Source of the DNA: Pseudomonas abietaniphila
Lineage (GTDB): Bacteria > Pseudomonadota > Gammaproteobacteria > Pseudomonadales > Pseudomonadaceae
DNA length: 64,000 bases
Reading direction: 5' to 3'
Assembly: GCF_039697315.1 (NCBI RefSeq)
Contig: NZ_CP155619.1
Span: 6,262,001-6,326,000 of the forward strand
A program made the translations under genes and the position numbers. This document shows, piece after piece, positions 10,746-41,070 of this stretch (positions within the stretch are counted from its first letter, which is position 1; the number at the start of each line of letters is the position of its first letter). Below the pieces are notes generated by a model. That model was not told the origin of the DNA. It ran no database searches and saw nothing but the letters and a program-made list of their open reading frames with translations.

Positions 10746-10830
10746 AATCGGGATCTCATCCGTTGATTCATCAATATAACGGCGCCGGTTATAGCAACAC
10801 TTCAACAGCGCCCGAACAGGAGCGTTTGTG

Positions 10831-23193: not shown

Positions 23194-23312
23194 GGCACGT
23201 TGGTCGATAGGAAGAAATGCCCATACATGACAGCGATGCAGTATGGGCAGTTTTTCGTGATGTACATGTCTGGTCTAGGCCTTATGCTCGATGCACATGC
23301 AGCGCGCACTCG

Positions 23313-23975
23313 TCAGGCTGCAGCTTTACCGGGGCGCGCCTGCACCGCGCAGGTTGCGGGGTGCTCAACCAACGACTTGAAGCTGCGGCCGTCTGCATCC
23401 AGGGCATCGATCGATCCCGTCTCGATGTCGTACACCCAGCCATGCAGATTCACGGCGCCTTTTTCCTGAGCCAGGCGGACGCTTGGGTGAGTTTGAATAT
23501 TCGCAAGCTGTGCGATGACATTCTCCCGCACCATCGAACTTACCTTCGCCGCTTCACTGATGTGCGACCTGGATTCGTTAATGACCTTGGCAGACTCAGC
23601 ATGCTCCAACCAGCCAGCGACCGCCGGTAAATGGTCCATGCACTTGCACTTTGCAACCGCCGTCATCGCACCACAATCAGAGTGTCCACAGATGACGATA
23701 TCGGTCACGCCCAGCACTGCGACTGCATATTCGACGGTGGCGGACACACCACCCGGGTGAGGGCTGTAGGAGGGCACGATGTTGCCCGCATTACGGATCA
23801 CGAAAAGTTCGCCGGGTTCCTGCTGTGTCAGGAGTTCGGGTACAACCCGGCTATCAGAACACGTAATGAACAGAGTCCCTGGGTGCTGGGTGGTAGCCAG
23901 ATGTTTGAACAGGTCTGTGCGTTGTGGAAATGCTTCTTTCTGAAACTTCAAAAAACCGTCAATAAGTGCTTTCAT
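23313..23975 (-). CDS. cynT: Beta-class carbonic anhydrase, cyn-linked
   Basis: A 220-residue beta-carbonic anhydrase with zinc ligands Cys39, Asp41/Arg43 pair (CSDSRV), His98 and Cys101 (GHSDCGAM). In cyn operons it supplies bicarbonate consumed by cyanase and recaptures CO2. It is the last of three co-directional genes, cynS, DUF2790 gene, cynT. The gene name is supported by this context as well as by sequence. Confidence 0.88.
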
Positions 23976-24012
23976 TTTTTAACGCCTGCGAATGGGACAA
24001 TGAATTGAGAGA

Positions 24013-24261
24013 TTAATTAGTGCAGCCTTCGCCCATCACGTCGTATTCCAGGACGTGAATACCGCCTTGCGAGTCTTTGTAAGTCATCTGTACAGGCGTT
24101 GGAGCGCAAACGCTGGCGGCAGGCGTTACGTTTACGACATGAGCGATATCCAGATGCATACCGTAAGTGTAGTGGACGACGTCCGGAGTGGCGGGCGCTT
24201 CTTGGGCGAACGCGGCTGCTGAAGAAGTAAGGGACAACGCCAAAAGCAGAAATTTTTTCAT
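24013..24261 (-). CDS. Small secreted DUF2790 protein
   Basis: An 82-residue protein with a clear signal peptide (KKFLLLALSLTSSAAAFA) and the DUF2790 core VHYTYGMHLDIAHVV. Two Cys residues (SVCAP, GEGCTN) could form a disulfide in the periplasm. ATG 24261 has GGAGG eight bases before it. DUF2790 proteins are common in Pseudomonas and lack a known function. Its place between cynS and cynT is notable. A degraded relative lies near cynR at 12727-12902. Confidence 0.8.
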   Translation of the reverse strand: MKKFLLLALSLTSSAAAFAQEAPATPDVVHYTYGMHLDIAHVVNVTPAASVCAPTPVQMTYKDSQGGIHVLEYDVMGEGCTN

Positions 24262-24319
24262 GGGGATTCCTCCATTCAAATTTGGTGTTTGGTCAGCAAT
24301 GAATTAAGTGTGAAAAGCA

Positions 24320-24339
24320 GGCCTGCGTTGGCGCAGGCC
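24320..24339 (-). terminator. Hairpin between cynS and the DUF2790 gene
   Basis: Perfect 8-bp arms GGCCTGCG and CGCAGGCC with a 4-base loop, followed on the minus strand by TGCTTTTC. It may partly terminate cynS transcripts or stabilise their 3' end, lowering expression of the downstream genes. Confidence 0.6.
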
Positions 24340-24362
24340 GAATTAACTTTCCGGATGCATCC

Positions 24363-24830
24363 TTAGAAAGGACGCAGTGGCAGGAACTTGCCGTCTAGTG
24401 TAATAACTGCACGGTGGCCACCTTCTGGATCTTCAACTTTCTTCATGTCCAGTTTGAAGTTAATCGCGCTGATGATCCCGTCGCCGAATTGCTCGTGTAC
24501 CAGCGCTTTCAGGGTGGTGCCGTAGATCTGAATCATCTCGTAGAAGCGGTAGATGGTCGGATCAGTGGGCACACCGGACAAGCTGCCGCGCAGCGGGATG
24601 ATTTGAAGGCGGGCCACCGAATCAGCGTCCAGTTCAAGTTTGTCGCCAATCACTTTTGCTGCGCTGGCGGGCAGAGGATGCTGGCCGAGCAGGGCTGCGG
24701 TGACGTAGGCGAGGCCCAGGCCGGTGCCGTCAGTTAGATCCTGCCATGACAGGTTTTTACGAGCCTTGGCATCCAGAACTTTGGTGGTCAATTCAAGGCT
24801 AGTATCGTTGTAGGCGTGAGACTGTTGCAT
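24363..24830 (-). CDS. cynS: Cyanase (cyanate hydratase)
   Basis: A 155-residue cyanase that turns cyanate and bicarbonate into ammonia and CO2 in the cytoplasm. The catalytic triad aligns as Arg95 and Glu98 in [11 protein letters not shown] and Ser121 in [12 protein letters not shown]. The N-terminal helical domain ([22 protein letters not shown]) is typical. ATG 24830, with AGAGG nine bases upstream, gives the family's usual length; the frame extends further upstream without support. First gene of the cynS-DUF2790-cynT set. Confidence 0.93.
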
Positions 24831-24921
24831 GGTGTTACCTCTATCAGTTTGGTTGGTTCGGTCGGTGTTGCTTCGTGTGAGGCAATCATCTTCCGATCCG
24901 TTGATAGCGTCCAAGACCGAT

Positions 24922-24937
24922 ATGCAATGCACTGCAT
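24922..24937. promoter_or_regulatory. Dyad in the cynS/cupin divergent promoter
   Basis: ATGCA-ATGCAC-TGCAT, 5-bp arms with a 6-base centre, lies between the divergent cynS and cupin genes. It could be an operator for CynR or another regulator. No binding data; assigned by symmetry and position. Confidence 0.4.
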
Positions 24938-24969
24938 AAGTACTACCAATAGATGCCAAGGGAGCGTTT

Positions 24970-25539
24970 ATGGACGCGCGCAATCCAGACTGTCTGATGT
25001 TGATACCCAATGGTTACCCGGTGTGGATTGACGTTCCGCAGGCGAGCGTTGGCGGCACGGCTACAGCGATGCGTTTCGTCTTGCCCGTGCGCGCTCATAA
25101 CCTCCCACTTTTGCATCGCAAGGAAACCAAGCTGGTAGTCGCACTCAGTGGCGAGCTGGAAATACGTACCGGGGACGGGCAAATAGCGTTCCTTGGACAC
25201 GGCGATGCATTAAGGCTGGAGGCGGGGACAGCTCATCGAATCCACCAATATGGTGAGGCATCCAGCACGGTAGGGGTGGTGCTTTGGCCGGGGGGTGTCG
25301 AGCAAGCGTTTCGAGAAATCGCTGACGCAGCGCGGCAAGTGCCTTTCCTGCGCAGCGATATGGTTGAGATTCTCGATCGCTATGACGTGGTTTGGACCGT
25401 ATCCTTCAAGCCGCCACAGGCCGAGAGTGAAAGGCTTTTTGGAACGGCCTTTCCAGGGTGGCTTCGCGAGTTACCGAGGGAAGCGGCGGCGCTGCTGCAA
25501 TCGAGATGGGGAGAGGCATACGCCCTTGGTAGTGCATGA
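24970..25539 (+). CDS. Cupin-domain protein
   Basis: A 189-residue protein with one cupin barrel: [21 protein letters not shown] and [20 protein letters not shown] give the two His-containing motifs. The C-terminal 60 residues form a helical tail. Metal-dependent sensing or small-molecule chemistry is possible. It is divergent from cynS, so it may be part of the cyanate response. The start at ATG 24970 has GGGAG upstream. Confidence 0.75.
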
Positions 25540-25633
25540 AGAGGAAGAAGTCCCTTTGCGCGCAAAGCAGGGTTCAGTCACATGATCCACGCATTCAACG
25601 GCTGCGGCCCAGCCAAGGCGCTGATCTCACAAC

Positions 25634-25677
25634 GTGAAATATCCGGGTCTAGCAATTATCGGATATTGCATTTGTTG
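25634..25677. repeat. Putative recombination (att-like) site B
   Basis: GTGAAATATCC, 16 bases, GGATATTGCAT, then TTGTTG. Compared with site A at 7177-7220 it has the same arm spacing, 16 of 17 bases in the right arm and about 33 of 44 overall, in the same orientation. It is a direct repeat bounding 18.5 kb. It may be an integrase core site or the scar of an integration. Confidence 0.45.
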
Positions 25678-26361
25678 GAACGCACACCTCATTTGCCAGG
25701 CTTGCGTATTTCTGAGGCTAACCAGGCGTTCAAGGCCGGCTGCAGTATTGCCTTTCTAAGGGTAGATCACGCGCTTTTGAGGGTTTCCAGTCCTCCCAAA
25801 CCCCTTGAAAGGCCTGTTGATATAGCCTGAAGCCCTTATATAACGTGGCTTCCAGGGCTTTTGGCGGGTTTATGCGAACACTGATACGCCGTGATCCGTC
25901 ATTCCAGTCGGGGAAATCCGGCGGCATGGGCGCTTGAATTTGATGGCGTTAGCTCGCAGAACCTCAGCGGCATGTCCCGCACGATTTCGTCGCTGCGAAC
26001 AGGCATGCCTGTAAATCAAGTCTGACCCAGACGCCGTGGACGTCACGCAGCGCGTTGGTGATTGAGCTGATTGGGTTTGCAGTGGTCGATGGGTCTGAGG
26101 GTGGGTATTCAGCGTTTCGTATTGCTGCGGATGAGATGGTGCTGATTGGTGTTGTGCACGATAGCGTGAATTATCCGACAGTGAGCGCAGGAAGCGGACG
26201 GGGATCACGGGATCGAGGCATGGATAGATCAATGATTGATGATGAGGCTGATAATAGTCCTCGGAACTAAAACGCGGGACGGCCGAACGTGGAAGAAAAA
26301 TGTCGGTTTTTCATAGAGATATATCAATAATCTGCAAATGATTTTTAGTCGACGTTCAATG

Positions 26362-26388
26362 AATTACTTCCTTGAACTGGAAGTAATT
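26362..26388. repeat. Perfect 10-bp inverted repeat (hairpin)
   Basis: AATTACTTCC, 7-base loop, GGAAGTAATT. It is not next to a gene. It may be a terminator, an operator or part of a transposon end. Confidence 0.45.
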
Positions 26389-27259
26389 TGTTGGACGGGG
26401 AGGAGAAGGAACTAATTTTTGGTCCTTAGACGCCGGTATCGTTAGGAAAAGGTTTCGCCGACCGAGCCCGCAATCTACCGGTCCCATTAGAAATCAGACG
26501 GTATTGATGGCAGGGGCAGCACTCGAGAAATTTGCTTGGCCCCGCGATTTCTCAGCAAATGGGCGTTCTCCCGCGAGCTCCCACAACTCAGTATTCATTC
26601 GGAACGTTGGATCTGCTAGGTGACTGCTTTTGGCTGTGCCGTCACTCAGCGGAGCGCCTCAAACGATTACTCGATTGAGCGTTTACACGTCGCTGCATAA
26701 GGGTATGTTGAAGAAACTCACCAGAGCGAGAGAATTGGCGCCATGGATAAAGGACATGAGCTACTTCAAGGGAATGCTTCGTCTCAGATTTCAGACGCCA
26801 GATTGGTCTGCCGTGGCTGGTCGGCAGGACAGAGTTTGATGGATGCGGAGTAGGCGTTTCTACACAGAGAGGACTGCCAACACTGTCATCCGGAATCCGA
26901 GTTCCGTGAAAAGCGCTCCACGAAATGCTGGACAGCATTAGAGGGTAGGGCTTCTCCTCGCACTTGGCCTCTCAAGAGCAGCGGCTGCTTCTGTTGCGAG
27001 CACTACATCGAGACTCCGATAAAAAAGGTTGATATGTCGCGACCAAGGAATTTGCAACGCGACCTGGTTGCAGAAATTTCACTGTAATAACCAGAGCGCC
27101 ACGTTGCTAACTGCGACTGTCCTCATACCGATTCGCTGCGCGACAGCAGACAGCATAAAATTGCGGTATCTCACCCATCCAAACTATAATTTTGCGTGAC
27201 GTGAAGAAGAGGGGAGTAAATTTTTAGGATAGGACATCGTCAGTTTCTGGCCACGCTCT

Positions 27260-28228
27260 TCATATGGGAGCTCTTATAAGCGCGTTCTGGAGCGCTGCGT
27301 TCTGCTGACGAAGATTAGAGTTGTCGTCCCTAAGAATATCCATAGCCTCACCTATACTCTGAAGTCTCCCTTTGAGCTCTGCTATATCCTGAGCTGCTTT
27401 ACTCTTGAGAACTCTCAGCTGTTCTAGAATCTGATTCGCTTGGCGGAGCTCTTTTTGAAGATGTTCGGCTTTACGCCGCTCTTCATCGCGGATTCGGGCA
27501 GTTTCCATCATCAGATGGTTTTCCGTGTGCTCAAGATGCCTTGCGGCATCTTCATGTGCGCTGGAAGCTATTGCTGAAGCCTGAATCAATTGTTGATGCA
27601 AGCGCTGTACCTCACCTAAATGGAGCTCCTGTATAAACTCAACTTGGGCGCGATGAAGACAGTCAAGTCGATCAGTGTCATCGTGATGAGTCTGCGCTGC
27701 AATGCTGTGTTCTTTCAGCAAGATATCGTATTTTTCCTTCCAGTCGCGAACGCCTGAACTTAAGTGTTCAACATGCTCACCTAGTCGAGCATTTATAACG
27801 CGCAACTCCACGATTTCCTCGTCCCGTGTGAGAAGGGCCGCAACAAGATTGCTGTTTCTGAGCTGGACAGCTAGTTGTGCATTTTCTGTCATTTGGAGGT
27901 CAGAGTCGGACTTCTGTAATTTGCCCTGCAAGGCAACAGAGGCGGACTCAAGTGCTATTTGCCAGAGTTGGTCTATCTGGAGGCACAGCGTCTCGGGGAT
28001 AGAGGGTCTATGTAACCGGGCGCTTATAGCAGGACCCGCAAATGACCAGAACCTTTTTATTTCATCCTGCACCAGATTGGGCGAGGCCTTTATTCCGTGG
28101 CGCTCGAAAATCAAATCACGCAGCGCGGACTGCCGGATCTCAAGGCCTTGCTCCAATAATTCTTGGGCATACGTGTGTATGAGTACTCGAGTTTTAGCCC
28201 GCCCCCCCTTTGCATCTGCGCTATTCAT
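27260..28228 (-). CDS. KfrA-like DNA-binding coiled-coil protein
   Basis: A 322-residue protein: an N-terminal KfrA-type DNA-binding domain (QGLEIRQSALRDLIFERHGI, KASPNLVQDEIKRFW, residues 20-60) followed by about 200 residues of alpha-helical coiled coil rich in Glu, Gln, Arg and Leu (HLEHTENHLMMETARIRDEE, LRQANQILEQLRVLKSKA). This is the architecture of plasmid KfrA and of TnpT, the cointegrate-resolution helper of Tn4651-type transposons. It follows a tyrosine recombinase on the same strand, 141 bp away, which suggests a recombinase/accessory pair. Direct family assignment is by architecture. Confidence 0.7.
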   Translation of the reverse strand: MNSADAKGGRAKTRVLIHTYAQELLEQGLEIRQSALRDLIFERHGIKASPNLVQDEIKRFWSFAGPAISARLHRPSIPETLCLQIDQLWQIALESASVALQGKLQKSDSDLQMTENAQLAVQLRNSNLVAALLTRDEEIVELRVINARLGEHVEHLSSGVRDWKEKYDILLKEHSIAAQTHHDDTDRLDCLHRAQVEFIQELHLGEVQRLHQQLIQASAIASSAHEDAARHLEHTENHLMMETARIRDEERRKAEHLQKELRQANQILEQLRVLKSKAAQDIAELKGRLQSIGEAMDILRDDNSNLRQQNAALQNALIRAPI

Positions 28229-28369
28229 GATCTACTGCATTGTCAAAATTTATCACATTGATTGTGGAACATGGATTGAAGCTAAAATATCGCCTCGAAA
28301 AATCACAATTTAAAGACTGCGTTGAAATTTCCATCATGGTAGCAAAACCACTTAAATTGGGGGAAGCAA

Positions 28370-29443
28370 TCATGGCGCGATGGGCAGTCTCAGAGTGACG
28401 CTCCCACGCAACAGCATTTGATCTTCGATCGGAATGTATTTTGCGACACTTTCTACCGAGCTGTTGCCAGCGAGGGTATTTACCAGTACCAAATTTCCAG
28501 TCTCAGCCGCGAGGTGGCTGAAACATGAGTGGCGTAACCAATGAGTGGACGCGGATTCAAGACTCAGCGCCAATTCGGGTAGGTCGCGGTCCCGCGCCAG
28601 CGACGCAGCCTTCTTCATGACCCGCTTCATGGCGGTAAGCACAGTAGCATTATGGGCTCGCTTTAAGCTGCTGTTGGCGGCCAAAAGCAACGGAGTTTCG
28701 TCATTTTCCGCTACAGTAGGCGACAATCCAAATTCAATTCGGTATCGAATTAAAGCGGAGTAAAGCTGCGAATTAATGGGCACCCGACGCAGCTTGCTTC
28801 GCCTGCCAATGATCTGAAGCCAGCACTCGTTAGCACCAGTTTCCTGAATGCTGTTCATATTCGCATTTGTTGCTTCAAATGTGCGGATACCTGTCAGATA
28901 GAACAGCGATACCATGAACAGATCCCGCGCCACCAACCTTTTATTCGTCGAATCCCTAGCGGCCTCGAGCATCAGTTGAATCCCGGAGATGGGAAGTTGG
29001 CGAAGTATGACTGGGAGGTGGATGAGCTCAGGTTTTTTGATCAGACGAAATGGATTTTCGATGCAGCATCCCCGTTCAATCATCCAAGTATACAACCCTC
29101 CAAGCTGGATGAGTGCGAGTCGTCGGGAGCTTGCGCTCAAGGGGCCGGCGAAGGGGCGCCATTCTGGATGAGAACGGGGGCGTTTGGTTGTGGATATCCA
29201 AAAATCTCTTGGCTGAGGATCCGACAGGAAAGTTGTATAGGCCTGAGCGTCTTCAACCGAGATTTCACGAAGATGCTTTCCGAGCATGTACCTAGCCCAC
29301 AGTGCAAAGCGATCGGCTTCCTTACGCATTACCCTCAACGACTTTGCACAGGATGCTCTAGCCGCCCCCCACCTGAGGATCAATTGCTCATCACTGAGGT
29401 GTTCAGCATCACGCTTTTGTTGATCTTCGATATTCTTTTTCAT
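28370..29443 (-). CDS. Tyrosine recombinase next to the Tn7-like genes
   Basis: A 357-residue recombinase. Core-binding domain about residues 40-130; catalytic domain with Arg in LTGIRTFEATN, Lys in GRRSKLRRVP, His-x-x-Arg in THWLRHSCFSH and the likely nucleophile Tyr in VAKYIP. The usual LxxH box before the Tyr reads LAGN, so the second His is Asn here, a substitution tolerated in some members. It is transcribed divergently from the TnsA-like operon and upstream of a KfrA-like coiled-coil gene. Likely role: resolving cointegrates or excising the element. ATG 29443 is preferred to TTG 29446. Confidence 0.82.
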   Translation of the reverse strand: MKKNIEDQQKRDAEHLSDEQLILRWGAARASCAKSLRVMRKEADRFALWARYMLGKHLREISVEDAQAYTTFLSDPQPRDFWISTTKRPRSHPEWRPFAGPLSASSRRLALIQLGGLYTWMIERGCCIENPFRLIKKPELIHLPVILRQLPISGIQLMLEAARDSTNKRLVARDLFMVSLFYLTGIRTFEATNANMNSIQETGANECWLQIIGRRSKLRRVPINSQLYSALIRYRIEFGLSPTVAENDETPLLLAANSSLKRAHNATVLTAMKRVMKKAASLARDRDLPELALSLESASTHWLRHSCFSHLAAETGNLVLVNTLAGNSSVESVAKYIPIEDQMLLRGSVTLRLPIAP

Positions 29444-29667
29444 CAACTGCGTCTCGGTATAGTCAACAGCTAAATGTCATAGGTTTATAAGGCGTAGGAG
29501 CGGATCGCAAATTTACATATTAGATCATTCGGCATCCCACGCAAGAGTGTGCTGGCCCTGTCGATGAACGGCGCATACTTCAATAAAGTTGACGCGCGCA
29601 ACATCAATGATTGTTTTATTTTTAACTCTTATTGCTACGTGTGACGAATCGAAGTCGCAAGCGCTGC

Positions 29668-29679
29668 CGTATTAATACG
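29668..29679. promoter_or_regulatory. 12-bp perfect palindrome upstream of the Tn7-like operon
   Basis: CGTATTAATACG lies about 70 bp before the GTG start of the TnsA-like gene, with a further CGTATT half-site at 29685-29690. It may be an operator controlling the transposition operon or the divergent recombinase. The remainder of 29444-29745 is A/T-rich and gene-free. Confidence 0.45.
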
Positions 29680-29745
29680 TGTTTCGTATTTCTGTCAGCG
29701 CATTGAGCTAGGAAATAATTTATTCGTGTTCCGGAGGTTTTTGCT

Positions 29746-30456
29746 GTGTCTAATAAGCAAAAAATCTATCGACGAATGATGGATCCGTTATTGTTGAGTG
29801 CAGGCAGACAAAATCTGCGGGTGACGATAATGAAATCGAATGTAACGCCAAAAAACGCCATGCGTCGGCGCATTCTCGAGGCAGCCCGAACTCGAGGCGG
29901 GGCGACCGGTAATTTGTGGTGTGCGTGGAGCGAAAAGAGCCGTGCAAGTCTAGTGTTGCCATCGGATATTGCCCTTATCTACTGGCTAGCGCACTTAGAA
30001 ATAGACCCCGATGTAGAATCGTTTCGTCTTGGGACCGCAGTCGACAATTTTGACTTTTCAATAAATAGGCGGTCAACAGGACCTTCCAAAGTGATAATCA
30101 GTGATCGAAGAACTCGTGAGGCTGTTACACAGGGTGTTATCTGCGTTCCGCATAGCGAAGTCCTGGCTAAGTCAGCTTTAGCTGTAAAGCTTATGAAGCC
30201 GATTGCGTTTGCTGCAGCTATTGCTCACAAGGAGTGCCTTGCTGCTGCAAACGCAGTACGTGCCCTCACCTCGGCCCAAAAAAAAGGTGTGCTAAACGAT
30301 GTTTTGGATGGCTTACCAAACTTTGATCCTTCGGAGGTTTGCGGGGTATTCATGCGGCAGACAATTAAGGGCTTCTTAGAGGTGGATCTAGCAGATGGAC
30401 CGTTTGGCCATCGGACGCCGTGGATGTGCCGGTCACTGCCGGAATCCGCTTACTGA
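29746..30456 (+). CDS. TnsA-like protein with degenerate nuclease centre
   Basis: A 236-residue protein in the tnsA position, directly before tnsB. The block from WSEKSRASLVL to LEIDPDVESF (residues about 60-92) matches the TnsA phrase that contains the first catalytic Glu and the LExDPxV motif, but the Glu position is Asp (PSDIALIYW, Asp74). The later PDF and VEVK motifs are not recognisable. The GTG start has GGAGG nine bases upstream. If this is TnsA it probably cannot cut the non-transferred strand and may be a structural link to TnsC. It could alternatively be an unrelated co-operonic protein. Confidence 0.5.
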   Translation: MSNKQKIYRRMMDPLLLSAGRQNLRVTIMKSNVTPKNAMRRRILEAARTRGGATGNLWCAWSEKSRASLVLPSDIALIYWLAHLEIDPDVESFRLGTAVDNFDFSINRRSTGPSKVIISDRRTREAVTQGVICVPHSEVLAKSALAVKLMKPIAFAAAIAHKECLAAANAVRALTSAQKKGVLNDVLDGLPNFDPSEVCGVFMRQTIKGFLEVDLADGPFGHRTPWMCRSLPESAY

Positions 30457-30466
30457 GACGCTGGTT

Positions 30467-32425
30467 ATGTCACTCAAGGGATCAGCGTTTGGAACATTCG
30501 ATGACTGGCATAAGCCCGATTTAACCGGATTGTCAGATTATGAGTTGGACCAGTATCAGCGAAAGTATGAAGCGATGCGGCTTTACTGTTCAAACGCTAC
30601 CATCAAGGAAATTAAGGATTGCACGGGCATAAGTAAGACCACTGTTTACTACTACTTACGCCGCTGTATGGAATGCGCGCCGGATGGTAGCTTGTGGGGA
30701 TGCCGCGCACTGATTCCCCATCTCTTTATACATGGTTATAAACGTACCCTTCCCGCAAGGCGTAAGCTTTCGGAAGCAAAAGGCGGATTTTCCGGGATGC
30801 TGAGGCAGACCTTTGAGAAATTCCCGGGGTTGGAGGCGGATTTCATTAAACTCATCAAAGCATCGGTAACACCGAACAGTGTTAAGGAGTTCAGAAAGAG
30901 ATCGTTTTCGTATCATAGAGATTTTCTCAAGTTGCTCGAGAAGTACGGTGCAAATGGTCATGAATGGCCATTCAATACTAAACATTTGGGTCTGCGTACG
31001 ATATCTAAGTTTGTACAGGAGACGAAAAATAACCTGCATAACCTCTTTATAAAATTTGAGGGTGAAAGCGCAGCAAAAGCACATCTCGCTGTCGGGAGGT
31101 CAGCTAGACCTGCGTTGAAATTTACCGAGCCTTTCGATGCGGTGGAAATCGATGGGTATCACTGGGACTGCCACTCGGCGGTCCGATTTAAAACGCCTGA
31201 TGGCTTGTATGTGAATGTCGGGATTAGCCGGCTATGGGTGGTCCTGATGGTCGATGTAGCATCATTTGCAGTACTCGCTTACAAGTGCGTATTTACCAGC
31301 GAGCCTTCCGCGCAGGATGTGGTTGATGTAATGCGTTACTCCATTTGTGGGCAACCTCGTCCCGATCCGGTGATTGATGGCTTGGTTTATCCAGAAAACG
31401 GCGGGTTGCCAAATGCCGTAATAAATGAATGCAAAGGAGCTTTGTTTTCGGTAGCTAAGTTCGATGGGGCGTTGGCCCACTTGTCTGAAAAAGTAAGCAA
31501 TTTTGCTCGGAAAGAGCTCGGTTTTTTTTGGACGCTTGGTCCCCCTGGACACTTTGAGCGACGCGCGCATGTTGAGCACTTGTTTGCGCTCTTTTCTCAG
31601 AATGTGTTTTGTCGCTTACCCAGCACCACCGGCCACGGTCCTGGGAATGGAAAAGCTCCCAACGCAGAGCAGATTGCCAAACGAATTCCTATTCTGGCGG
31701 AAGAAATATTACATTTGTTGGACGTTGAGATCGCTCAGTACAATGCCAGAATGAGCGAAGGGCTGTGTTTTTTATCTCCTCTCGACTATTTGAGGGAAAA
31801 GATGGCTAAGGACAATAATCACTTTTTGCCTAGAACGCTGGGACGTCGGTGTCAGTCCACCGAGGTTCTTCAAACTAAGAAACTTGTTACCGTTCGAGGC
31901 AATACGAAAGGCGGGCGACGCCCATACATTCAATTCATGCGGGTTCGTTATAGCAGTCCGCTTTTGGCTGATGGGTGGGGGTTGATTGGCAAAAAATTGA
32001 CTATTTTTATTGATGAAGCTGATTTGCGGGCGATTACCGCTTATACCCCAGACGGGTTTCTCTTAGGAAGGCTCGTGGCACAGGGGAAGTGGGCGGATAC
32101 AAAGCATGATCTCAAGACTCGTATGGCCATTAATACCAAAATGGCCGACCGTGCATTGCAGGTCGCGTCGGAACAGAATCCTGTCCAAGTGTACCTTGCT
32201 GCGCTCAGCGCCAGCAGCAAATCCGGTGGTGACATTAATGCGCGGGATGCGACTGAGGCTGCACGCGTGGCTAACGAAGCAGGTATTGAACTGCAAATGA
32301 CGGAAGCACCAGCTTATATCGTCAAAGATTCTGGAAAAATGCTTGAGTACTCCGACTCACTCATAATAGGGAAGCCTATCCCTGACTTGAACGACGTTAT
32401 CAATAAAAAAAGGCGTGGGTCATGA
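30467..32425 (+). CDS. TnsB/TniA-like DDE transposase
   Basis: A 652-residue Mu/TnsB-type transposase: N-terminal helix-turn-helix (ATIKEIKDCTGISKTTVYYY), rve catalytic core with Asp229 in VEIDGYHWD and Glu370 in AHVEHLF, and a C-terminal Mu-C-like beta-barrel (MRVRYSSPLLADGW). The middle catalytic Asp is not obvious: the expected place reads VINECKGALFS (Asn320/Glu321). It catalyses strand transfer at element ends. The ATG 30467 lies 10 bp after the TnsA-like stop; an overlapping upstream start is less likely. It ends in an ATGA overlap with tnsC. Base composition is more A/T-rich than the flanks. Confidence 0.85.
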   Translation: MSLKGSAFGTFDDWHKPDLTGLSDYELDQYQRKYEAMRLYCSNATIKEIKDCTGISKTTVYYYLRRCMECAPDGSLWGCRALIPHLFIHGYKRTLPARRKLSEAKGGFSGMLRQTFEKFPGLEADFIKLIKASVTPNSVKEFRKRSFSYHRDFLKLLEKYGANGHEWPFNTKHLGLRTISKFVQETKNNLHNLFIKFEGESAAKAHLAVGRSARPALKFTEPFDAVEIDGYHWDCHSAVRFKTPDGLYVNVGISRLWVVLMVDVASFAVLAYKCVFTSEPSAQDVVDVMRYSICGQPRPDPVIDGLVYPENGGLPNAVINECKGALFSVAKFDGALAHLSEKVSNFARKELGFFWTLGPPGHFERRAHVEHLFALFSQNVFCRLPSTTGHGPGNGKAPNAEQIAKRIPILAEEILHLLDVEIAQYNARMSEGLCFLSPLDYLREKMAKDNNHFLPRTLGRRCQSTEVLQTKKLVTVRGNTKGGRRPYIQFMRVRYSSPLLADGWGLIGKKLTIFIDEADLRAITAYTPDGFLLGRLVAQGKWADTKHDLKTRMAINTKMADRALQVASEQNPVQVYLAALSASSKSGGDINARDATEAARVANEAGIELQMTEAPAYIVKDSGKMLEYSDSLIIGKPIPDLNDVINKKRRGS

Positions 32426-33399
32426 AAGAAGATCTAAAGGTGCCGGAAGTGGACCGTGAGCGCTTACTCGAAGATCATCCGGTGGTGACTACCCGTTATA
32501 CGTTGATTACGCCAATGATCGCCAAGGCTTACTCAATTATACGTGAGCGTGTCTTTGCCAGGCACACAGGCACGTTCATGTATGCAAGGCCAAGAATGGG
32601 GAAGACCAGATGTGCGACCATCATTCGAGATCTGCTCGCCGCCGAGTTTCCCCGGAAATATATTTTATATCATACCTGCGATGGCGATAAGGCCGGCAGA
32701 CTGGTCGGTGACTTAGTCACGGCTCTTAAACTCCCGACAAAGTCTAAGGAGCCTTATAACCAATTGAAGGAGAAATTCCTTCTCCATGTGATCGTTGAGC
32801 TTGAAGAGCGCAATGGCAATCATTTTGTTTTGATTCTAGATGAAAATCAAATGCTCACGATCGAAGCTTACACTGAGCTATCGGTTATTCATAACAAACT
32901 TGAAAGCCGTGGAATCAATATGACTACCTTAGGCTTTGGACAATCCGAAATCTTGGGAAAGCAAAACCTGTTGTTCTCGCTGGGCGCGACCAACCTGGTC
33001 GCGCGATTTTTGTGCGAGCCCATCAAATTTGTGGGATGCCTCACGGTGGAGGACTTCACTTCTATTTTGAATGAGTACGATTCCAACAAGGAGTATCCGT
33101 TGGATTCGGGATGCACTTACACGCAATTCTTCCTCCCGCTTGCCTATGCCGCTGGCTTCAGGTTGGCCGGAGCAGCCGGTTTGATTTGGGCTGCGCTTAC
33201 CAATACGGCAGGCGATGCAGGTGCCGCTGCACTGCCGTTGGAGCATACTCTCCGAATGGTTGAAGACATTTTGATGCGTAGCCGACACGCCGATAATTCC
33301 GACTTTTCCATCTCGAATGAGACGGTCGCTGTCGCCATCAACAAGAGCCTGATTCTTGATTTTGTCATGATCATGCAACAAGCCCCTAAGCAGGTTTGA
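32422..33399 (+). CDS. TnsC/TniB-like AAA+ ATPase
   Basis: A 325-residue ATPase that would couple target choice to the transposase. Walker A is ARPRMGKT (residues 55-62, Lys61) and Walker B is VLILDEN (Asp140, Glu141). Sensor-type residues follow in TTLGFGQSE. The start overlaps the tnsB stop (ATGA), showing tight operon coupling. The length suits TniB/TnsC of compact Tn7-like elements. Confidence 0.87.
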   Translation: MKEDLKVPEVDRERLLEDHPVVTTRYTLITPMIAKAYSIIRERVFARHTGTFMYARPRMGKTRCATIIRDLLAAEFPRKYILYHTCDGDKAGRLVGDLVTALKLPTKSKEPYNQLKEKFLLHVIVELEERNGNHFVLILDENQMLTIEAYTELSVIHNKLESRGINMTTLGFGQSEILGKQNLLFSLGATNLVARFLCEPIKFVGCLTVEDFTSILNEYDSNKEYPLDSGCTYTQFFLPLAYAAGFRLAGAAGLIWAALTNTAGDAGAAALPLEHTLRMVEDILMRSRHADNSDFSISNETVAVAINKSLILDFVMIMQQAPKQV

Positions 33400-33404
33400 T
33401 CCAG

Positions 33405-34847
33405 ATGAAAATCATTTACGGTCAATTTAATTACCTACCATTTGAGTCATCTTGGGCAGTATTCATCAAGGCTGGCGGATTGAATCTCATCCCCCCCCAC
33501 AGCCTGATTAAGACGTTTTCAGATCGTGCTGGCGCGCGCTACTGGGCTGCCACGGATATGAACAGCGCGAGACTAGCCAGCGGGTTGGGGCTTTCAAAGG
33601 CGGCAATCAGCCGTTGTTTCATTGATCACGTGACAAGCGGGACGCAGCGAGAGTCGGCCGCGTTCATTCGCCATTGTCCACAGTGCATAGCCGCAGGCTA
33701 CCATTCGGTCTTTTTTTTGCTACACATTTTTAAGAGGTGCCCTTGGCATGATGAACTGCTGACGCACTGTAGAAGTTGTTCGCGTGCCTGCTCGCCAGGC
33801 GGGATGTCGATCCGGGCGCAAAACGAGGCATTCAACGCCAGCATCCGTTGCGGACATTTTGCCTTTTGCTCAACGGGCTCGGTGCGACTGAGCGTGATCA
33901 CAGCTGATCAGTGGCACGCTTACGCCAGTTTGGGACTGGCATTGCAGAAGTGGTTCAATGCGGCCCGAAAAATAAATAGCCCGCTCATTGACTATGCCAG
34001 CTCGCTTTATGACGCAGCTTACCTGGGTGGGTCAGTCCCCACCAGGCAGGAGCAGATGATCAATTGCGGCTTGCAGCTGGCACTTTCCGCTGTCGGACCT
34101 ATTCCAGCTTCTCAAGCCATCTCATCTACTCCGTTGCCGCCCCTTGAAGTAAATACGACCCCCTATAGGGCCGATGATGCAGTCTTTCAACCTGATCATG
34201 AAACTCTGTTTGCAATGTACCGCAGTGTTCGGCACTACCTCTACAAGCGATATGTCAGAGCGCATGCGGCCTGCTATCGATACTTGACAACGCTCACGAC
34301 CCAAGGCTTGCACGCACTCGACAGCACATGTGCTTGTACGGCATCTGCAGCATTTCTGGCTTGGCGGCTCGCGTTGCGGTATGACTACGGGGAAGGGGGA
34401 CCAATCAACCTGACGGCGCCCTCACATGCGATCTTGCCGACCACCCAACGGCAAATCATGGCGCTGTGGATTACGCATTTTTACGCCATCTGGTCCGGCA
34501 TTGAGCGGACTAACGCGAGCTGCTCGATGGAGCGGGATCGTTTTTCAGTTGCGCTTTCTTCCAATGTCCCGCCACTGACCTTGGGCAATGAGGTCGTCTG
34601 TATCTGTGGTTACGCCCATTCCAGGCTTCTGCAACTCACTACTGTCCATGTCGACCCGCAATGGTTGGTCAGCCAGAGCGCTGAGCGTTGCCAAAAGCGC
34701 CGCAGTACTGCTGATCAGTCAAATGTCCGTGCGCGTGAAACGGTACAATTTTGGTCGTACCAACCGCACCCGGCGACCCTTTTACGCTTTTGGTACAACC
34801 CCTATGTCAAGATGTGTCGCAACTCGCCGGTTGTTGCGGCGGGATGA
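33405..34847 (+). CDS. TniQ/TnsD-family target-selection protein
   Basis: A 480-residue TniQ protein. The zinc-binding set is visible: Cys91, Cys94 (RHCPQC), Cys112, His115 (RCPWH), Cys122, Cys125 (HCRSC). TniQ/TnsD proteins recognise target DNA or recruit TnsC. It is the last gene of the operon. The C-terminal half carries further Cys pairs (EVVCICGYAHSR) and is longer than plain TniQ, so it may bind a specific attachment site as TnsD does. ATG 33405 is used; a TTG overlapping the tnsC stop is an alternative. Confidence 0.82.
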   Translation: MKIIYGQFNYLPFESSWAVFIKAGGLNLIPPHSLIKTFSDRAGARYWAATDMNSARLASGLGLSKAAISRCFIDHVTSGTQRESAAFIRHCPQCIAAGYHSVFFLLHIFKRCPWHDELLTHCRSCSRACSPGGMSIRAQNEAFNASIRCGHFAFCSTGSVRLSVITADQWHAYASLGLALQKWFNAARKINSPLIDYASSLYDAAYLGGSVPTRQEQMINCGLQLALSAVGPIPASQAISSTPLPPLEVNTTPYRADDAVFQPDHETLFAMYRSVRHYLYKRYVRAHAACYRYLTTLTTQGLHALDSTCACTASAAFLAWRLALRYDYGEGGPINLTAPSHAILPTTQRQIMALWITHFYAIWSGIERTNASCSMERDRFSVALSSNVPPLTLGNEVVCICGYAHSRLLQLTTVHVDPQWLVSQSAERCQKRRSTADQSNVRARETVQFWSYQPHPATLLRFWYNPYVKMCRNSPVVAAG

Positions 34848-34855
34848 CAGACCAG

Positions 34856-35272
34856 TCAGGCCGCGCGGTAGAGCGTTTGTTGATCGCGAAGCGGCGTCGC
34901 GCTATTCGCTGACTCTTCGTAGTGGCTACCGTTGGATAGATCGATCATAAATACCGGCCCTCCGCTACTCTCACGCCATTCGATTGCCTGTACCGGAACA
35001 ATTGACCAGGTGCCCGAGCTGTCGTGACTGGGCATTACACTCATGACGCGAGTCACGGTCGCATCAGTTGGCAGAGTTTGTAAAAGCTGCCGAAAATGGT
35101 CCACGCAGGAAACCAACATCATCCGCTGAAAATCGAAGCTGTTATCCCATTGTGTTATGCACACATACAGCCAAGGTACGGCCAGCTCCTGTTCGATGAT
35201 CGCCCAATGCCTGCTGCCATCAGGGAAATGCAGGCTACTGCGAAGTTCAGCGCCTGGATGAGTTACGAACAT
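34856..35272 (-). CDS. Hypothetical protein divergent from XRE regulator
   Basis: A 138-residue soluble protein with no family I recognise (RHWAIIEQELAVPWLYVCIT, WDNSFDFQRMMLVSCVDHF). It converges on tniQ and is divergent from the XRE regulator at 35363 across a 90-bp gap with a perfect dyad. That arrangement suggests a real, regulated gene. It may be a cargo or regulatory gene of the element. A toxin-like role opposite the regulator is only a guess. Confidence 0.5.
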   Translation of the reverse strand: MFVTHPGAELRSSLHFPDGSRHWAIIEQELAVPWLYVCITQWDNSFDFQRMMLVSCVDHFRQLLQTLPTDATVTRVMSVMPSHDSSGTWSIVPVQAIEWRESSGGPVFMIDLSNGSHYEESANSATPLRDQQTLYRAA

Positions 35273-35294
35273 ACAGGCTACCCCGCATCCAAAA

Positions 35295-35327
35295 TGAACA
35301 CTATAGATTGTAGTCCTTTAGTGTTCA
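35295..35327. promoter_or_regulatory. Perfect 9-bp dyad, probable XRE operator
   Basis: TGAACACTA, 15 bases, TAGTGTTCA, in the divergent gap between the hypothetical gene and the XRE gene. An inner ACTA/TAGT pair adds further symmetry. This resembles autoregulatory operators of small XRE or controller proteins. Confidence 0.6.
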
Positions 35328-35362
35328 ATGCCGCTTCATCGTTCCTTTTGCAGGAGTCGCAA

Positions 35363-35638
35363 ATGGAACTGAACGATGCTGTTGGCCAAGCTTTGCGCAA
35401 TGCACGTCTTCGTACGGGCTACACTCAGGAGGATTTTGGCAACATCAGCAGTCGAACCTACATCAGTTCACTGGAGCGGGGGACGAAAGCGGTAACTGTT
35501 AACAAGCTGACCGCGATTGCCGATATGATGGGCGTGCACCCACTTAGCATCTTGGCTGAGGGTTTTGTGCTGCAATCGGGTCATGATTTGGACGAACTGC
35601 TGGCACGCGTAAAAGCCGAACTGTCTGGGGGGAAGTGA
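35363..35638 (+). CDS. XRE-family helix-turn-helix regulator
   Basis: A 91-residue regulator: one Cro/C1-type helix-turn-helix in residues 8-62 (LRNARLRTGYTQEDFGN, SSRTYISSLERGTKAVT, KLTAIADMMGVHPLSILAE) and a short C-terminal helix. ATG 35363 has CAGGAG seven bases upstream; the longer frame upstream overlaps the dyad and the divergent gene. It probably binds the dyad at 35295-35327 and controls both itself and the 34856-35272 gene. Confidence 0.85.
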   Translation: MELNDAVGQALRNARLRTGYTQEDFGNISSRTYISSLERGTKAVTVNKLTAIADMMGVHPLSILAEGFVLQSGHDLDELLARVKAELSGGK

Positions 35639-35694
35639 CACTACCCGCATATGCCTCATGTCGCGGCTGGCGCAGTCGCAGCCAGCTGTCGCTT

Positions 35695-36816
35695 CTAGTC
35701 ATGACCTAAGTCAGGTTCGGCACTGTCATGGTTCGGCTGCGCTTCCCGAGATAGTAGCTGGCTTGCAGGGCTTCCCAGGAGTGATCCTGCTTGGAAGTAG
35801 CTCATAACGGTGCTGATGCTCCTGTGCTCGGTCATCGCCATAACGTCACCAATAGGCACGGATTGCCGTCCAGCCTCGGTCACAAAACCTGAGCGAAGGC
35901 TATGTGCCGCCCAGTCACCCTCAAGGCAGGCCAATTTCGCTCGACGCTGGACGATCCTGGCCACTTGGTCAGCCGACAGCCCGCTTTTGCTGACCTTGCC
36001 ACCTTTATATAACCGTCTGAACAACGGTCCAGACTTGGCCGGGGCGACCTCTAGCCATGCAGCCAATGCTTGTGCGGCTGGACCACGCAAAGGCTTTTCA
36101 CGACGCACGCCGCCGGTATCAGTCTTGGTTGCTCCCAGTGTGTAGATCCAGGTGTCAGCGTCCAGTTGCCGCACATCGTTGATCGTCAAACCGACCACTT
36201 CTGAACGCCTCCGACCGCCACCGCTCCAGGCCAAGAGAAGCAGGGCGCGATCGCGGATGCCACGGACACCATCCGTGCACGACGCCAACATGGCCTGCAG
36301 CGGCTCAAGCACTACGGCCGTCTTTTTCCTGACCTCAAGACCCTGGCGGACTTGTGCCTTGCGTGCCTCGCGCAGCAAGGTTTTGACCGCGACTGACGCG
36401 GTGGGGCTGGGCCATTTATTTACGTCGTGCCATTTACTGAGCACCGATAGGCGATGGCTCACCGTATTAAAGGCTAGCGCGCCGGATTTGCTTTTAACCT
36501 TGGCCGTGACTAGAGCGGCGTCTATCGCCGGCGGCAATAGGTGTGCCCAACCGCCATCTTCGAGCGGTCGGGCAAGGTGATCGAGGATGAACTGCAGTGC
36601 CACCGTTTCCGGCAACGGGCCGTCACCTAACACGCTCTCATAACGCAGACGCAGCCAGGCTGCCCAGTAGGCAAGGGCGCTCCGGTAACTGCGCACGGTA
36701 TTGGCTGCAGTCCCCGCTGCGATGAAGGCCTGGGCAGCCTGCCGAGCATTTTCTGCGAGCGTATCCAGTGACAATGGGCCGTCGATCGCAGCTTTTAGTT
36801 GATTCGTTTTATTCAT
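35695..36816 (-). CDS. TnpS-like tyrosine recombinase (cointegrate resolvase)
   Basis: A 373-residue recombinase of the type found as TnpS in Tn4651-family (Tn3 superfamily) transposons. Catalytic residues: Arg in GGGRRRSEVVGL, Lys in GATKTDTGG, His-x-x-Arg in AHSLRSGFVTEA, His in TEHRSI and Tyr in MSYFQAG. It is divergent from a TnpT-like gene, with a dyad-rich gap between them, exactly the tnpS-res-tnpT layout. ATG 36816 is preferred; a TTG three codons upstream is an alternative. No Tn3-type transposase is present nearby, so this is a resolution module without its transposase. Confidence 0.85.
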   Translation of the reverse strand: MNKTNQLKAAIDGPLSLDTLAENARQAAQAFIAAGTAANTVRSYRSALAYWAAWLRLRYESVLGDGPLPETVALQFILDHLARPLEDGGWAHLLPPAIDAALVTAKVKSKSGALAFNTVSHRLSVLSKWHDVNKWPSPTASVAVKTLLREARKAQVRQGLEVRKKTAVVLEPLQAMLASCTDGVRGIRDRALLLLAWSGGGRRRSEVVGLTINDVRQLDADTWIYTLGATKTDTGGVRREKPLRGPAAQALAAWLEVAPAKSGPLFRRLYKGGKVSKSGLSADQVARIVQRRAKLACLEGDWAAHSLRSGFVTEAGRQSVPIGDVMAMTEHRSISTVMSYFQAGSLLGSPASQLLSREAQPNHDSAEPDLGHD

Positions 36817-36877
36817 TACGTTCAACGTAGTAAAATACTATTTATCGAAAAATAGAGTCGGATAAACTTAATTTATC
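36817..36877. other. Putative resolution (res/rst) site between tnpS and tnpT
   Basis: Three short dyads lie in tandem: TACGT-TCA-ACGTA (36817-36829), CTATTT-ATCGAA-AAATAG (36838-36855) and GATAAA-CTTAA-TTTATC (36861-36877). The centre sizes (5-6 bases for two of them) suit tyrosine-recombinase core sites. The same DNA must carry both promoters. Confidence 0.55.
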
Positions 36878-36903
36878 AGACCTAATATAGCTGGAGGCAG
36901 GTC

Positions 36904-37878
36904 ATGGCGGTAGGAGTTCCCGAAGAAGAAGTATTTGCAGCAGCTGATGCGGTACTGGCGCGTGGCGAGCGGCCCACGGTCGAGCGCGTTCGCTTGGAAC
37001 TCGGGCGCGGTAGTCCTGCTCGCGTTGGTAGCCTCTTGGATCAATGGTGGGACCGCCTGGCTCAACGTCTCAGAAGTGAAACTCGCCTTCCATCTTTGCC
37101 TTCCGAAGTGTCACAGGCGTTTGTCGCGGTCTGGCAGCAGGCCGTGCGCCTTGCCGAAGATGTGGCGGAACAGTCTCTAGACCAACAGCGTCAGGTCCTC
37201 ATGGCCGAAAGAGCAGAAATCTTGGCAATCGAGGATGCGGCCCGGCAGGAGGCGGCTCAGTATCGTCAGCAGTCCGCAGCCGCGATCGCGCAACAGCAGG
37301 TTGCTGAGCGCCGGCTCGCTGATCTGGAGCGGCTGCTGGATCAAGGCCAGCGACAAATCGAAGACCTCACAGAGCAACGCGACGGGTTGAAAAAAGAAAG
37401 TGAAACTGAACGTGAGCGGATTCAGTCGCTTGAACGACAATTGCTGTCGGACCGGTATGACGCAGACCAGGCTCATAAAGCACAGGAGACCTATGTGAGA
37501 GGCGTGGAGGAGCGTGCCCACCGGGAGGTCGACCGTGCCCGCGAAGAGACAAAGGCGACTGGTTTACAGCTCAAGGAATCAGCGAAGCAATTGGTTCAAC
37601 TGCAGCAACGGCTCGAGACGACGCTGCAAGCCTTGGACCTTCTTAAGCCAGAGCTGGCAGCCGAGAAGGCACTCGCAGCCCAAACCGCTAGGCAGCTGGC
37701 TGAGTGGGAAGCCAAATTCGCCGCACATTCCGTCCTTCTGGAAACCGCGAAGCATGCGGCAACGACGCAGCAAGCGAGGGCAGAAACCTTGGAGCAGATG
37801 GTGACCCATTTACGCTCACAGCCGCAGCCGACCCGCAACAGACGGGTCACCAAACCGGCGGCGCCAGAAGACTCTTAG
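36904..37878 (+). CDS. TnpT-like resolution accessory protein (KfrA-like coiled coil)
   Basis: A 324-residue protein with an N-terminal DNA-binding domain (EEEVFAAADAVLARGERPTV, VRLELGRGSPARVGSLLDQW) and about 220 residues of heptad-rich coiled coil (Gln, Glu, Arg, Leu; LERLLDQGQRQIEDLTEQRD). This matches TnpT of Tn4651-like transposons, which binds the res site and helps TnpS. The ATG 36904 follows GGAGG by seven bases. It parallels the KfrA-like gene at 27260-28228, which is shorter in similarity but the same architecture. Confidence 0.82.
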   Translation: MAVGVPEEEVFAAADAVLARGERPTVERVRLELGRGSPARVGSLLDQWWDRLAQRLRSETRLPSLPSEVSQAFVAVWQQAVRLAEDVAEQSLDQQRQVLMAERAEILAIEDAARQEAAQYRQQSAAAIAQQQVAERRLADLERLLDQGQRQIEDLTEQRDGLKKESETERERIQSLERQLLSDRYDADQAHKAQETYVRGVEERAHREVDRAREETKATGLQLKESAKQLVQLQQRLETTLQALDLLKPELAAEKALAAQTARQLAEWEAKFAAHSVLLETAKHAATTQQARAETLEQMVTHLRSQPQPTRNRRVTKPAAPEDS

Positions 37879-37960
37879 ACCTTAGAGCCAGATGTGTTCT
37901 GATCAGATATGTGAAACCGCTCTCGTCTGCGTGCCCGCGAGATAAATAATTCGAGTGACG

Positions 37961-37977
37961 GCTTCTGGCCGAAAGCT
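37961..37977 (+). repeat. Interspersed repeat copy 1 (GCTTCTGGCCGAAAGC)
   Basis: First of three near-identical copies in this window, at 37962-37977, 53187-53202 and 61266-61281. Each lies in intergenic DNA. This copy has AA in place of the AT found in the other two. Confidence 0.5.
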
Positions 37978-38017
37978 GACTCTGTTAGAGCTTCCTGAGC
38001 TGCACGATGTGTGTCGC

Positions 38018-38314
38018 TTAAGCGTCTTTGGTTCGTGTGAAGCCGCAGCGCAGGTAAAAAGTGCTTGCCTCGGCGGTGTCGCTGTAAAGACGCACACTTT
38101 CAAAGTGCAAAGCAGCATGGGCAAGCAAGGCGCTAACCAGTCGCCTGCCAATCTGTTGCCCTCGTGGCGCAGGAACCACGTAAACACGCCACAGCCTCCC
38201 TGTACTGGCATGCGTGAACGGATCAACAGACAGACCTCCAATGCCCACCAGTTGCTGGTCCAGATATGCTGCCATTAGGCATTCGTCTGGCGCAATGTCG
38301 AGAATCCAGACGTC
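38018..38314 (-). pseudogene. GNAT acetyltransferase, N-terminus missing
   Basis: The minus-strand frame reads from DVWILDIAPDECL through VGIGGLSVDPF and RLWRVYVVPAPRGQQIGRRL to LRLY-like RLYSDTAEASTFYLRCGF. This is the acetyl-CoA-binding half of a GNAT N-acetyltransferase. The preceding codon is a stop, and the next bases belong to a LacI-type frame on the opposite strand. The first 50-60 residues are therefore lost at about 38315, a rearrangement junction. Confidence 0.7.
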
Positions 38315-38317
38315 TCA

Positions 38318-38857
38318 ACGGTAAGTGTCGATGACAGAGGAGGGGTCGAGAAGCTGTTCAGGTTCTTGATCACCCTGGGTCATCGCCATATCGCGCATAT
38401 CCGCGGCGGCACGAAAGCCGCTGCTGCTGAGTGCCTGGAAAGCTACCTGCAAGTGATGCTCGAAAATGATCTGCCACCGCTGGTTTTTGAGGGCGGAAGC
38501 GACGCAGATGCAGGTCGCCGAGGGGTGGATGCGCTGGTCGCGCACTCACCCGTCCCTACAGCGATTTTTGCTTACAACGATTTGCTCTCCTGTGGTGCTG
38601 TCAATCGCCTTCACGGCTTGGGCAAGCGCGTCCCCGAGGACATCTCTGTGGTGGGGTTCGACGATATACCCGCTGCGGCAAGCGAAACACTCTCGATTAC
38701 GACGTTGAGGCAGGATCGAGAGGATCAAGCCAGAAAAGCAGTTAGCGCACTTCTAGTTCTCATGCGCGAGGGGGATTCTCAGGCGCAGATAATTGTTGTG
38801 CCTGTGGAGTTGATGGTCAGGCGACCAGTCTCCGCCCCGCGTAAGCCCTTTAGATAA
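38318..38857 (+). pseudogene. LacI-family regulator, N-terminal half missing
   Basis: About 180 codons of the C-terminal ligand domain of a LacI/GalR regulator: VSVDDRGGVEKL, LGHRHIAHIRG, PTAIFAYNDL, GLGKRVPEDISVVGFDDIP, and the C-terminal TTLRQDRE segment. The helix-turn-helix and first lobe are absent; the reading starts at the junction near 38315. It lies beside the sugar-isomerase operon, so it was probably its regulator or that of a lost gene. An internal start could yield only a non-DNA-binding fragment. Confidence 0.75.
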
Positions 38858-38860
38858 GGA

Positions 38861-38886
38861 GAGGCGGCCGAAGCGGCCTCTTCACG
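38861..38886. terminator. Short G/C hairpin between convergent genes
   Basis: GGCCG-AAG-CGGCC at 38866-38878, flanked by GAG and CTC, followed by TCTTCACGTT. It is a plausible weak terminator for the LacI fragment and the convergent isomerase gene. Confidence 0.4.
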
Positions 38887-39789: not shown

Positions 39790-39870
39790 TGTTGTTCTCC
39801 ATAGTAATTGCACACTGCGCGCTGGGGCGCATATTTAGGTCGGTCATGCGGTAGGCAGAGCCGCCAGGCG

Positions 39871-41040: not shown

Positions 41041-41070
41041 GTTGTTGTCCTTTTTATTCAGCGTCGTGGA

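Follow-up and report, generated by a model that had tools for sequence, protein, structure and literature searches.

Tn5053 carries a serine resolvase, TniR, and is not known to have a TnsA-like gene. The tniR gene is named in PMC8373256. In the parts of the cited articles on which we draw here and below, Benler et al. 2021 (PMC8649781) tie loss of tnsA in Tn7-like elements to resolvases of the tyrosine or serine type, a link repeated in a 2024 review (PMC11406308). Without the TnsA nuclease, replicative transposition persists and cut-and-paste is abolished (PMC8649781). In Tn3-family modules, the rst site lies between divergent tnpS and tnpT genes (PMC7157771, in which one figure legend swaps the names). 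Here we describe a Tn7-like element in a 64,000-nt stretch of Pseudomonas abietaniphila (GCF_039697315.1, NZ_CP155619.1, 6,262,001–6,326,000; single-contig genome of 6.55 Mb), the whole of which is referred to as the window. We propose, with a probability of roughly 0.7, that this element undergoes replicative Tn7-like transposition with a non-nuclease TnsA and is resolved by an exchangeable cassette of the TnpS/TnpT type.

A previous sequence-only reading of the window described six open reading frames (ORFs): an operon for TnsA-like, TnsB, TnsC and TniQ proteins and, running divergently, genes for a tyrosine recombinase and a KfrA-like protein. All six are present as described, and the gene set was confirmed. 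A second divergent recombinase/KfrA-like pair, located at 35695–37878 and 0.85 kb past tniQ, had been overlooked. The operon and this second pair consist of the following features:

29830..30456, + strand: TnsA-like protein, catalytic motif lost (longest ORF from 29746; start at 29830 is the chosen reading)
30395..32425, + strand: TnsB, DDE transposase (Mu-transpos_C, 4.3e-4; D253/D357/E394)
32422..33399, + strand: TnsC, AAA ATPase (AAA_22, 8e-8)
33396..34847, + strand: TniQ-like protein (assigned from its position, an N-terminus rich in cysteines by eye, and weak profile similarity to PF06527 proteins)
35695..36825, − strand: Rec2, TnpS-like tyrosine recombinase, conserved resolvase candidate (Phage_integrase, 1.2e-17)
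36817..36829, no strand: inverted repeat TACGTTCAACGTA, at the same place in most Rec2-type loci compared
36857..36882, no strand: rst-like core GTCGGATAA-N7-TTATCAGACC, presumed resolution site between Rec2 and KfrA2
36904..37878, + strand: KfrA2, TnpT-like partner with KfrA_N and a coiled coil (KfrA_N, 4.2e-23), divergent from Rec2

A DDE-type TnsB, an AAA-type TnsC and a TniQ in one operon constitute a Tn7-like core, the assignment of the TniQ-like protein to PF06527 proteins coming only from weak matches of a custom profile. In a Pfam scan of the window proteins, neither the TnsA-like nor the TniQ-like protein had a match of its own, and the Mu-transpos_C match of TnsB fell only just under the family cut-off. 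The TnsB residues D253, D357 and E394 are invariant in an alignment of its relatives, and its best segments are 57–64% identical to those of the nearest relatives, L006, L007 and L049; related TnsB proteins occur in two named loci, those of Pseudomonas sp. GM41 and PD9R. Alignment also shows that the catalytic residues of Rec2 are present.

We took the catalytic Glu, Asp and (E/Q)xK of Tn7 TnsA as reference residues, and positions in the window protein were assigned by alignment to intact relatives and L048. The motif (E47/D85/E99xK101 in L058 numbering) is kept in L051–L055 and L058. In the window protein, Ala replaces Glu, the ExK stretch is deleted and the motif is absent, leaving it without the catalytic residues of the endonuclease of cut-and-paste Tn7. 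This protein is 41–43% identical to its homologues in L006, L007 and L049 and is tied to canonical TnsA through the intact-motif relatives and L048 (PF08722, 2.6e-6); TnsA sequence searches of the PDB gave no match. TnsA was judged degenerate in 24 and intact in 6 of 30 loci, those of L039–L047, L067 and L068 by eye. Ratios of nonsynonymous to synonymous substitution rates (dN/dS) were 0.08–0.37 in eight pairs of degenerate tnsA genes, some of which share members and overlap, versus 0.08–0.18 for tnsB. These ratios cover relatives of the window gene, whose nearest relatives are too diverged to include it. Based on these values, the degenerate tnsA genes of the relatives are under purifying selection, and the gene has therefore been kept.

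The distribution of the cassette was determined from a TnsB search of 398 genomes of the genus (threshold 1e-10), in which 30 genomes, including that of the window, had a match. Profile and tblastn scans of the 30 TnsB loci (stretches of ~20 kb, shorter at contig ends) revealed recombinase and KfrA genes side by side in 15. Three more loci carry a broken recombinase, KfrA2 without a recombinase, or remnants (L065, L066 and L062, the KfrA remnant of L062 being doubtful), and six have Rec2 downstream of tniQ with no KfrA2 in the stretch (one of them, L040, truncated). Leaving out L050 and L053, where the contig ends before the cassette region, the cassette is present as a pair, a single gene or a remnant in 24 of 28 evaluable loci. 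Its position in the clade is within ~7 kb downstream of tniQ, and Rec2 is 73–79% identical at this place across very different tns operons, the exceptions being the broken copy in L065 (42–46%) and the remnant in L062 (44%). As a control, we sampled 40 loci spread down the list of canonical TnsA (PF08722) matches (over 100 places in 91 of the 398 genomes); the stretches extended ~15 kb downstream of tnsA, four of them being only 9–13 kb long. Although a custom profile detected TnsB in 33 of these control loci, a Rec2/TnpS- or KfrA2/TnpT-like protein was found in none of the 40 within the region covered. A Fisher test of 24/28 versus 0/40 gave 1.4e-14, a value that carries no correction for shared descent, related loci not being independent. 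At the level of whole genomes, KfrA2 is present in 15 of 30 with a window-type TnsB and in 33 of 368 without one.

A search of 273 genomes of the class from outside the genus returned Rec2 relatives (1e-40, 46–48% identity) in 3. Four such loci were inspected: a KfrA-like gene lies beside Rec2 in three of them, divergently in two, and no tns gene was present within 1.5 kb. A P. aeruginosa megaplasmid, p12939-PER, carries an element (L110, 7623–15958) that is 99.9% identical over ~15 kb to the element of genome G057 and has its tnsA interrupted by an annotated IS5-like element. No plasmid relatives of the window locus itself were found at the DNA level.

Kinship with a known resolution system was assessed with the tnpS/tnpT pair of pWW0, the Tn4651 plasmid, identified by position and annotation. 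Eight of the loci (L039, L042, L045, L047, L058, L059, L067 and L068) encode proteins 68–71% (TnpS) and 60–71% (TnpT) identical to those of pWW0. Rec2 and KfrA2 reproduce the layout of the TnpS/TnpT system, in which a recombinase and a coiled-coil helper are divergent with an inverted-repeat core between both genes, and KfrA2 resembles TnpT in its N-terminus only. A strict pattern for the window core found it in 14 of the 17 Rec2-type chains scanned and in 14 of the 18 single loci, never with a second copy; the core adjoins KfrA2 except in L062, where it lies beside the Rec2 remnant. The pattern missed G057, G229, G373, L053, L063, L110 and L156, some of which show a variant, and it gave no match in the two Tn4651-type chains, which have a different core. 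A single site per element is what resolution would need. The idea of an integron-like core-site array within the cargo was rejected, no second core being found in any chain scanned. The nearby TACGTTCAACGTA repeat is perhaps the binding site of the KfrA-like partner.

In the mechanism we propose, TnsB would join the 3′ ends of the element to the target. The TnsA-like protein, presumably retained in a structural or regulatory role, would be unable to cut the 5′ ends, and replication would then yield a cointegrate. Rec2 and KfrA2, acting like TnpS and TnpT, would recombine the rst-like sites between their genes, one per element copy, and so separate donor from target. The sequence-only reading had suggested that a degenerate TnsA, a recombinase and a KfrA-like helper make up a self-resolving Tn7-like element with a tyrosine rather than a serine resolvase. 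This idea is well supported by the comparisons above, although the proteins it named were the wrong ones, the actual pair being that at 35695–37878.

We next consider the ends of the element, since they bear on whether the cassette belongs to it. In seven groups, the tnsA-side end could be defined by comparing pairs of similar elements located at different sites. In genome G399, AGTTCTCGGAACTG and its inverted copy bound an element of 57,661 bp that is flanked by a 5-bp duplication, GCTCG; in G280, terminal repeats and a 5-bp duplication, CCGAT, delimit an element of 49,624 bp. Both enclose the pair. An automatic search for repeats plus duplications in 18 chains gave recognisable ends only in these two. 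Chance pairs of equal or higher score occurred in other chains and once in G399, and since the score alone proves nothing, the G399 and G280 ends rest on their likeness to the ends obtained by pairwise comparison. The window itself yielded a probable left end only:

26256..26279, + strand: probable left (tnsA-side) terminal repeat, starting AGTCCTCGGAACTAAAA

Here AGTCCTCGGAACTAA at 26256 equals the right end of G399 at 13 of 15 positions, with a search pattern that was loosened at exactly the two mismatching positions after this candidate had been seen. The 144-kb chain contains nine GAA[CG]TAA[AT] motifs, four of which fall at 26264–26416, within 160 bases of the end. Among right-end candidates, 96855 had neither a matching duplication nor a motif cluster, and 134167 and a short match at 37946 were not convincing. 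The comparison of empty and filled sites advised by the sequence-only reading gave no readable empty site among 38 genomes, of which 12 matched part of 23100–43000 and 16 the stretch past 96855 (own genome included).

The delimited elements also bear on whether the pair might be a target rather than a component. Tn5053 elements target res sites (PMC11406308), and a tns element of this kind could have landed beside a resident tnpS/tnpT pair. The pair, however, lies inside both G399 and G280 elements, kilobases from either end, and L067 and L068 share 15.5 kb that includes the pair, measured from a common end, at different sites. We consider this explanation of the neighbourhood extremely improbable and, with the pair inside two delimited elements, have rejected it.

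Several observations weigh against replicative transposition resolved by the cassette. The right end of the window element was not found by repeat and motif searches of the 144-kb chain, so this copy may be decayed. Window Rec2 is only ~25% identical to TnpS and represents a second cassette type. An AlphaFold model of TnsA (three sequences) had a predicted local distance difference test score (pLDDT) of 40.8 and was unusable. No cassette gene is present within ~10 kb in L056, L057, L060 and L061, all with a degenerate TnsA. TnsA state and cassette also fail to go together within the clade: the co-occurrence that the sequence-only reading proposed to check holds between lineages (24/28 versus 0/40), but the cassette or its recombinase is carried by all five evaluable loci with intact TnsA (L051, L052, L054, L055 and L058), and the cassette or part of it by 19 of 23 with degenerate TnsA, the other four having none within ~10 kb. 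For this reason, the likelier order of events is that the cassette was gained first and the nuclease decayed later.

Other such observations would fit a module for cargo capture or stability that hitchhikes on Tn7-like elements without resolving cointegrates. Among 15 KfrA2 loci examined that lack a window-type TnsB, 11 are without any TnsB within ~10 kb, so the cassette occurs elsewhere too. In five of the six loci with Rec2 only, KfrA2 lies on the same contig but 33–67 kb from the tniQ-side Rec2 (G057, L052/L137; G138, L046/L142; G226, L054/L134; G229, L055/L145; G357, L040/L140); the distant KfrA2 of G357 comes with its own full Rec2 (L140), and a genome search found no KfrA2 in G279. The DNA adjoining the Rec2 start differs among otherwise similar elements, and this site may be an insertion hot spot. 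A hitchhiker is nevertheless difficult to reconcile with a constant place close behind tniQ, the lack of a second core copy in the chains searched, absence from the 40 canonical-TnsA loci, and the eight loci identical in kind to the Tn4651 resolution pair. We regard it as unlikely, and favour resolution by Rec2 and KfrA2.

A further alternative assigns the function to the pair upstream of tnsA:

27260..28228, − strand: KfrA1, with KfrA_N and a coiled coil (KfrA_N, 6.8e-7)
28370..29446, − strand: Rec1, tyrosine recombinase divergent from tnsA (Phage_integrase, 1.8e-12)

The sequence-only reading took this pair as the partner of the tns genes, and placed it outside the element should the ends fall between 29444 and 29745. 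Since the left end appears to lie instead at ~26256, Rec1 and KfrA1 are probably inside this copy of the element. Rec1 keeps most catalytic residues, with HxxR and Tyr present and N at the His/Trp position in the alignment, and L148 has a KfrA1 homologue (37% identity) at the corresponding position, transcribed divergently from tnsB. The pair could act as a resolvase or, like TnsF, an inactivated tyrosine recombinase that selects targets (PMC10293859), in target choice. Against either role, profile and tblastn scans found no match to the pair upstream of tnsA in L006, L007 and L049, and conservation beside the tns genes therefore failed in these nearest relatives; the two genes are co-directional with no site identified between them; and the element already has a conserved resolvase pair downstream. 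A functional partnership with Rec1/KfrA1 is quite improbable, and the pair is an idiosyncratic extra insertion near the left end, outside the conserved machine. Another tyrosine recombinase, at 5812–7185, is 22–25% identical to Rec1 and possibly comes from a neighbouring island.

Additional recombinase-like proteins are encoded beside tniQ in L042 (9702–10853), L045 (9260–10414), L047 (9283–10437), L043 (9401–10648), L044 (9338–10627) and L046 (9354–10583), and upstream of tnsA, divergent from it, in L051–L055. They match a custom recombinase profile and lack the catalytic residues in the alignment. In a Pfam scan of eight of them, three upstream ones matched Phage_integrase, all below the cut-off, and five by tniQ had no match. 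These proteins are reminiscent of TnsF, the inactive tyrosine recombinase that serves as target selector in Tn6022.

Cassette types appear to have been exchanged between elements. The KfrA-like gene adjoins tniQ in 8 of 8 Tn4651-type loci, and in Rec2-type loci of the clade with both genes it is the recombinase that does so, giving the opposite orientation. On a quick TnsB tree of 70 rows, for which the program warned of long branches, cassette labels were clustered by descent (no shuffle was as low) yet needed 6 and 4 changes, so that each type would have been gained or lost more than once. TniA/TniB/TniQ-like genes with no TnsA-like gene beside tnsB accompany the whole pair in L148 and L159 and KfrA2 alone in L156, three loci that were found through KfrA2 and hence chosen for it. 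In L153, the pair is on the tnsA side of the operon, and its TnsA-like protein has, in our own reading, PHF for the usual PDF. Taken together, these patterns probably reflect a radiation of Pseudomonas Tn7-like elements in which TnsA is a conserved non-nuclease subunit and exchangeable two-component tyrosine-resolvase cassettes finish transposition. Two or more distantly related types, including that of Tn4651, would sit in opposite orientation behind tniQ and have been swapped several times, one having moved into a TnsA-less TniABQ lineage.

Two smaller genes separate tniQ from the cassette:

34856..35272, − strand: P138, small conserved protein with no assigned function (52–53% identical in L006/L007; also in L049 and L148)
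35363..35638, + strand: helix-turn-helix (HTH) regulator (HTH_3, 8.6e-7), kept in L006, L007 and L049

The longest HTH ORF begins at 35096, antisense to P138, and 35363 is the chosen start; as ORFs (34856–35638), the two overlap on opposite strands. The order tnsA-tnsB-tnsC-tniQ, P138, HTH, divergent Rec2/KfrA2 is that of L006, L007 and L049, and L148 shares the P138-HTH-Rec2-KfrA2 order with the window, both small genes accompanying the cassette even into this TnsA-less locus. In L007, tnsB is split into two ORFs, and inspection by eye suggests a reverse transcriptase, possibly with a defence role, in the cargo beside KfrA2 (9944–11967 and 17538–18701 for tnsB and cargo). Directly past the window cassette, at 38366–38857, is a LacI-type ORF without its N-terminus (by eye), suggesting that a deletion or an insertion has left a scar there, on the cargo side.

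The sequence-only reading knew of no description of this gene set. The association of TnsA loss with resolvase gain was published in 2021 (PMC8649781), and it is the dead TnsA and the two-component cassette that look new. In searches of open-licence papers, no listed title or abstract opening described TnpS/TnpT in Tn7-like elements, and PMC3056050 alone joins tnpS, tnpT and TnsB, as separate table rows in the part retrieved. A retained dead TnsA, the helper gene, kinship with Tn4651 and cassette exchange were not found in the literature searched. A natural, kept-but-dead TnsA would allow one to ask what else TnsA does besides cutting, a question of current interest for Tn7 and CRISPR-associated transposons, and native resolvase cassettes might tidy the cointegrates of TnsA-less systems.

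The elements of Benler et al. 2021 (PMC8649781) resemble that of the window in being Tn7-like, with a tyrosine resolvase (tnsR) and predicted replicative movement. They differ in that TnsA, searched with PF08721/PF08722, is described as lost, whereas the window retains a degenerate TnsA; the text parts compared do not mention a helper protein, Tn4651 kinship or an rst-like site. Since Pfam, its TnsA families included, does not see the window TnsA, elements like this one would count as TnsA-less in such surveys. Tn5053/Tn402 (TniABQR) likewise use TnsB/C/Q kin and move via cointegrates, and L148 and L159 are TniABQ-like loci with the window cassette type. The window element departs from them in having a TnsA-like gene and two recombinases that both match tyrosine models, no search having been aimed at serine resolvases elsewhere in the element. 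The TnsA catalytic mutants of Tn7 are laboratory point mutants, whereas the decay seen here is natural and heavy, in a protein still under selection. Tn4651 shares the divergent tyrosine recombinase and KfrA-type helper with a site between them; its pair serves a Tn3-family transposase, and that of the window, an only ~25% identical type with a different core sequence, would serve TnsBC/TniQ, linking the resolution system of Tn4651 to a second superfamily of transposons.

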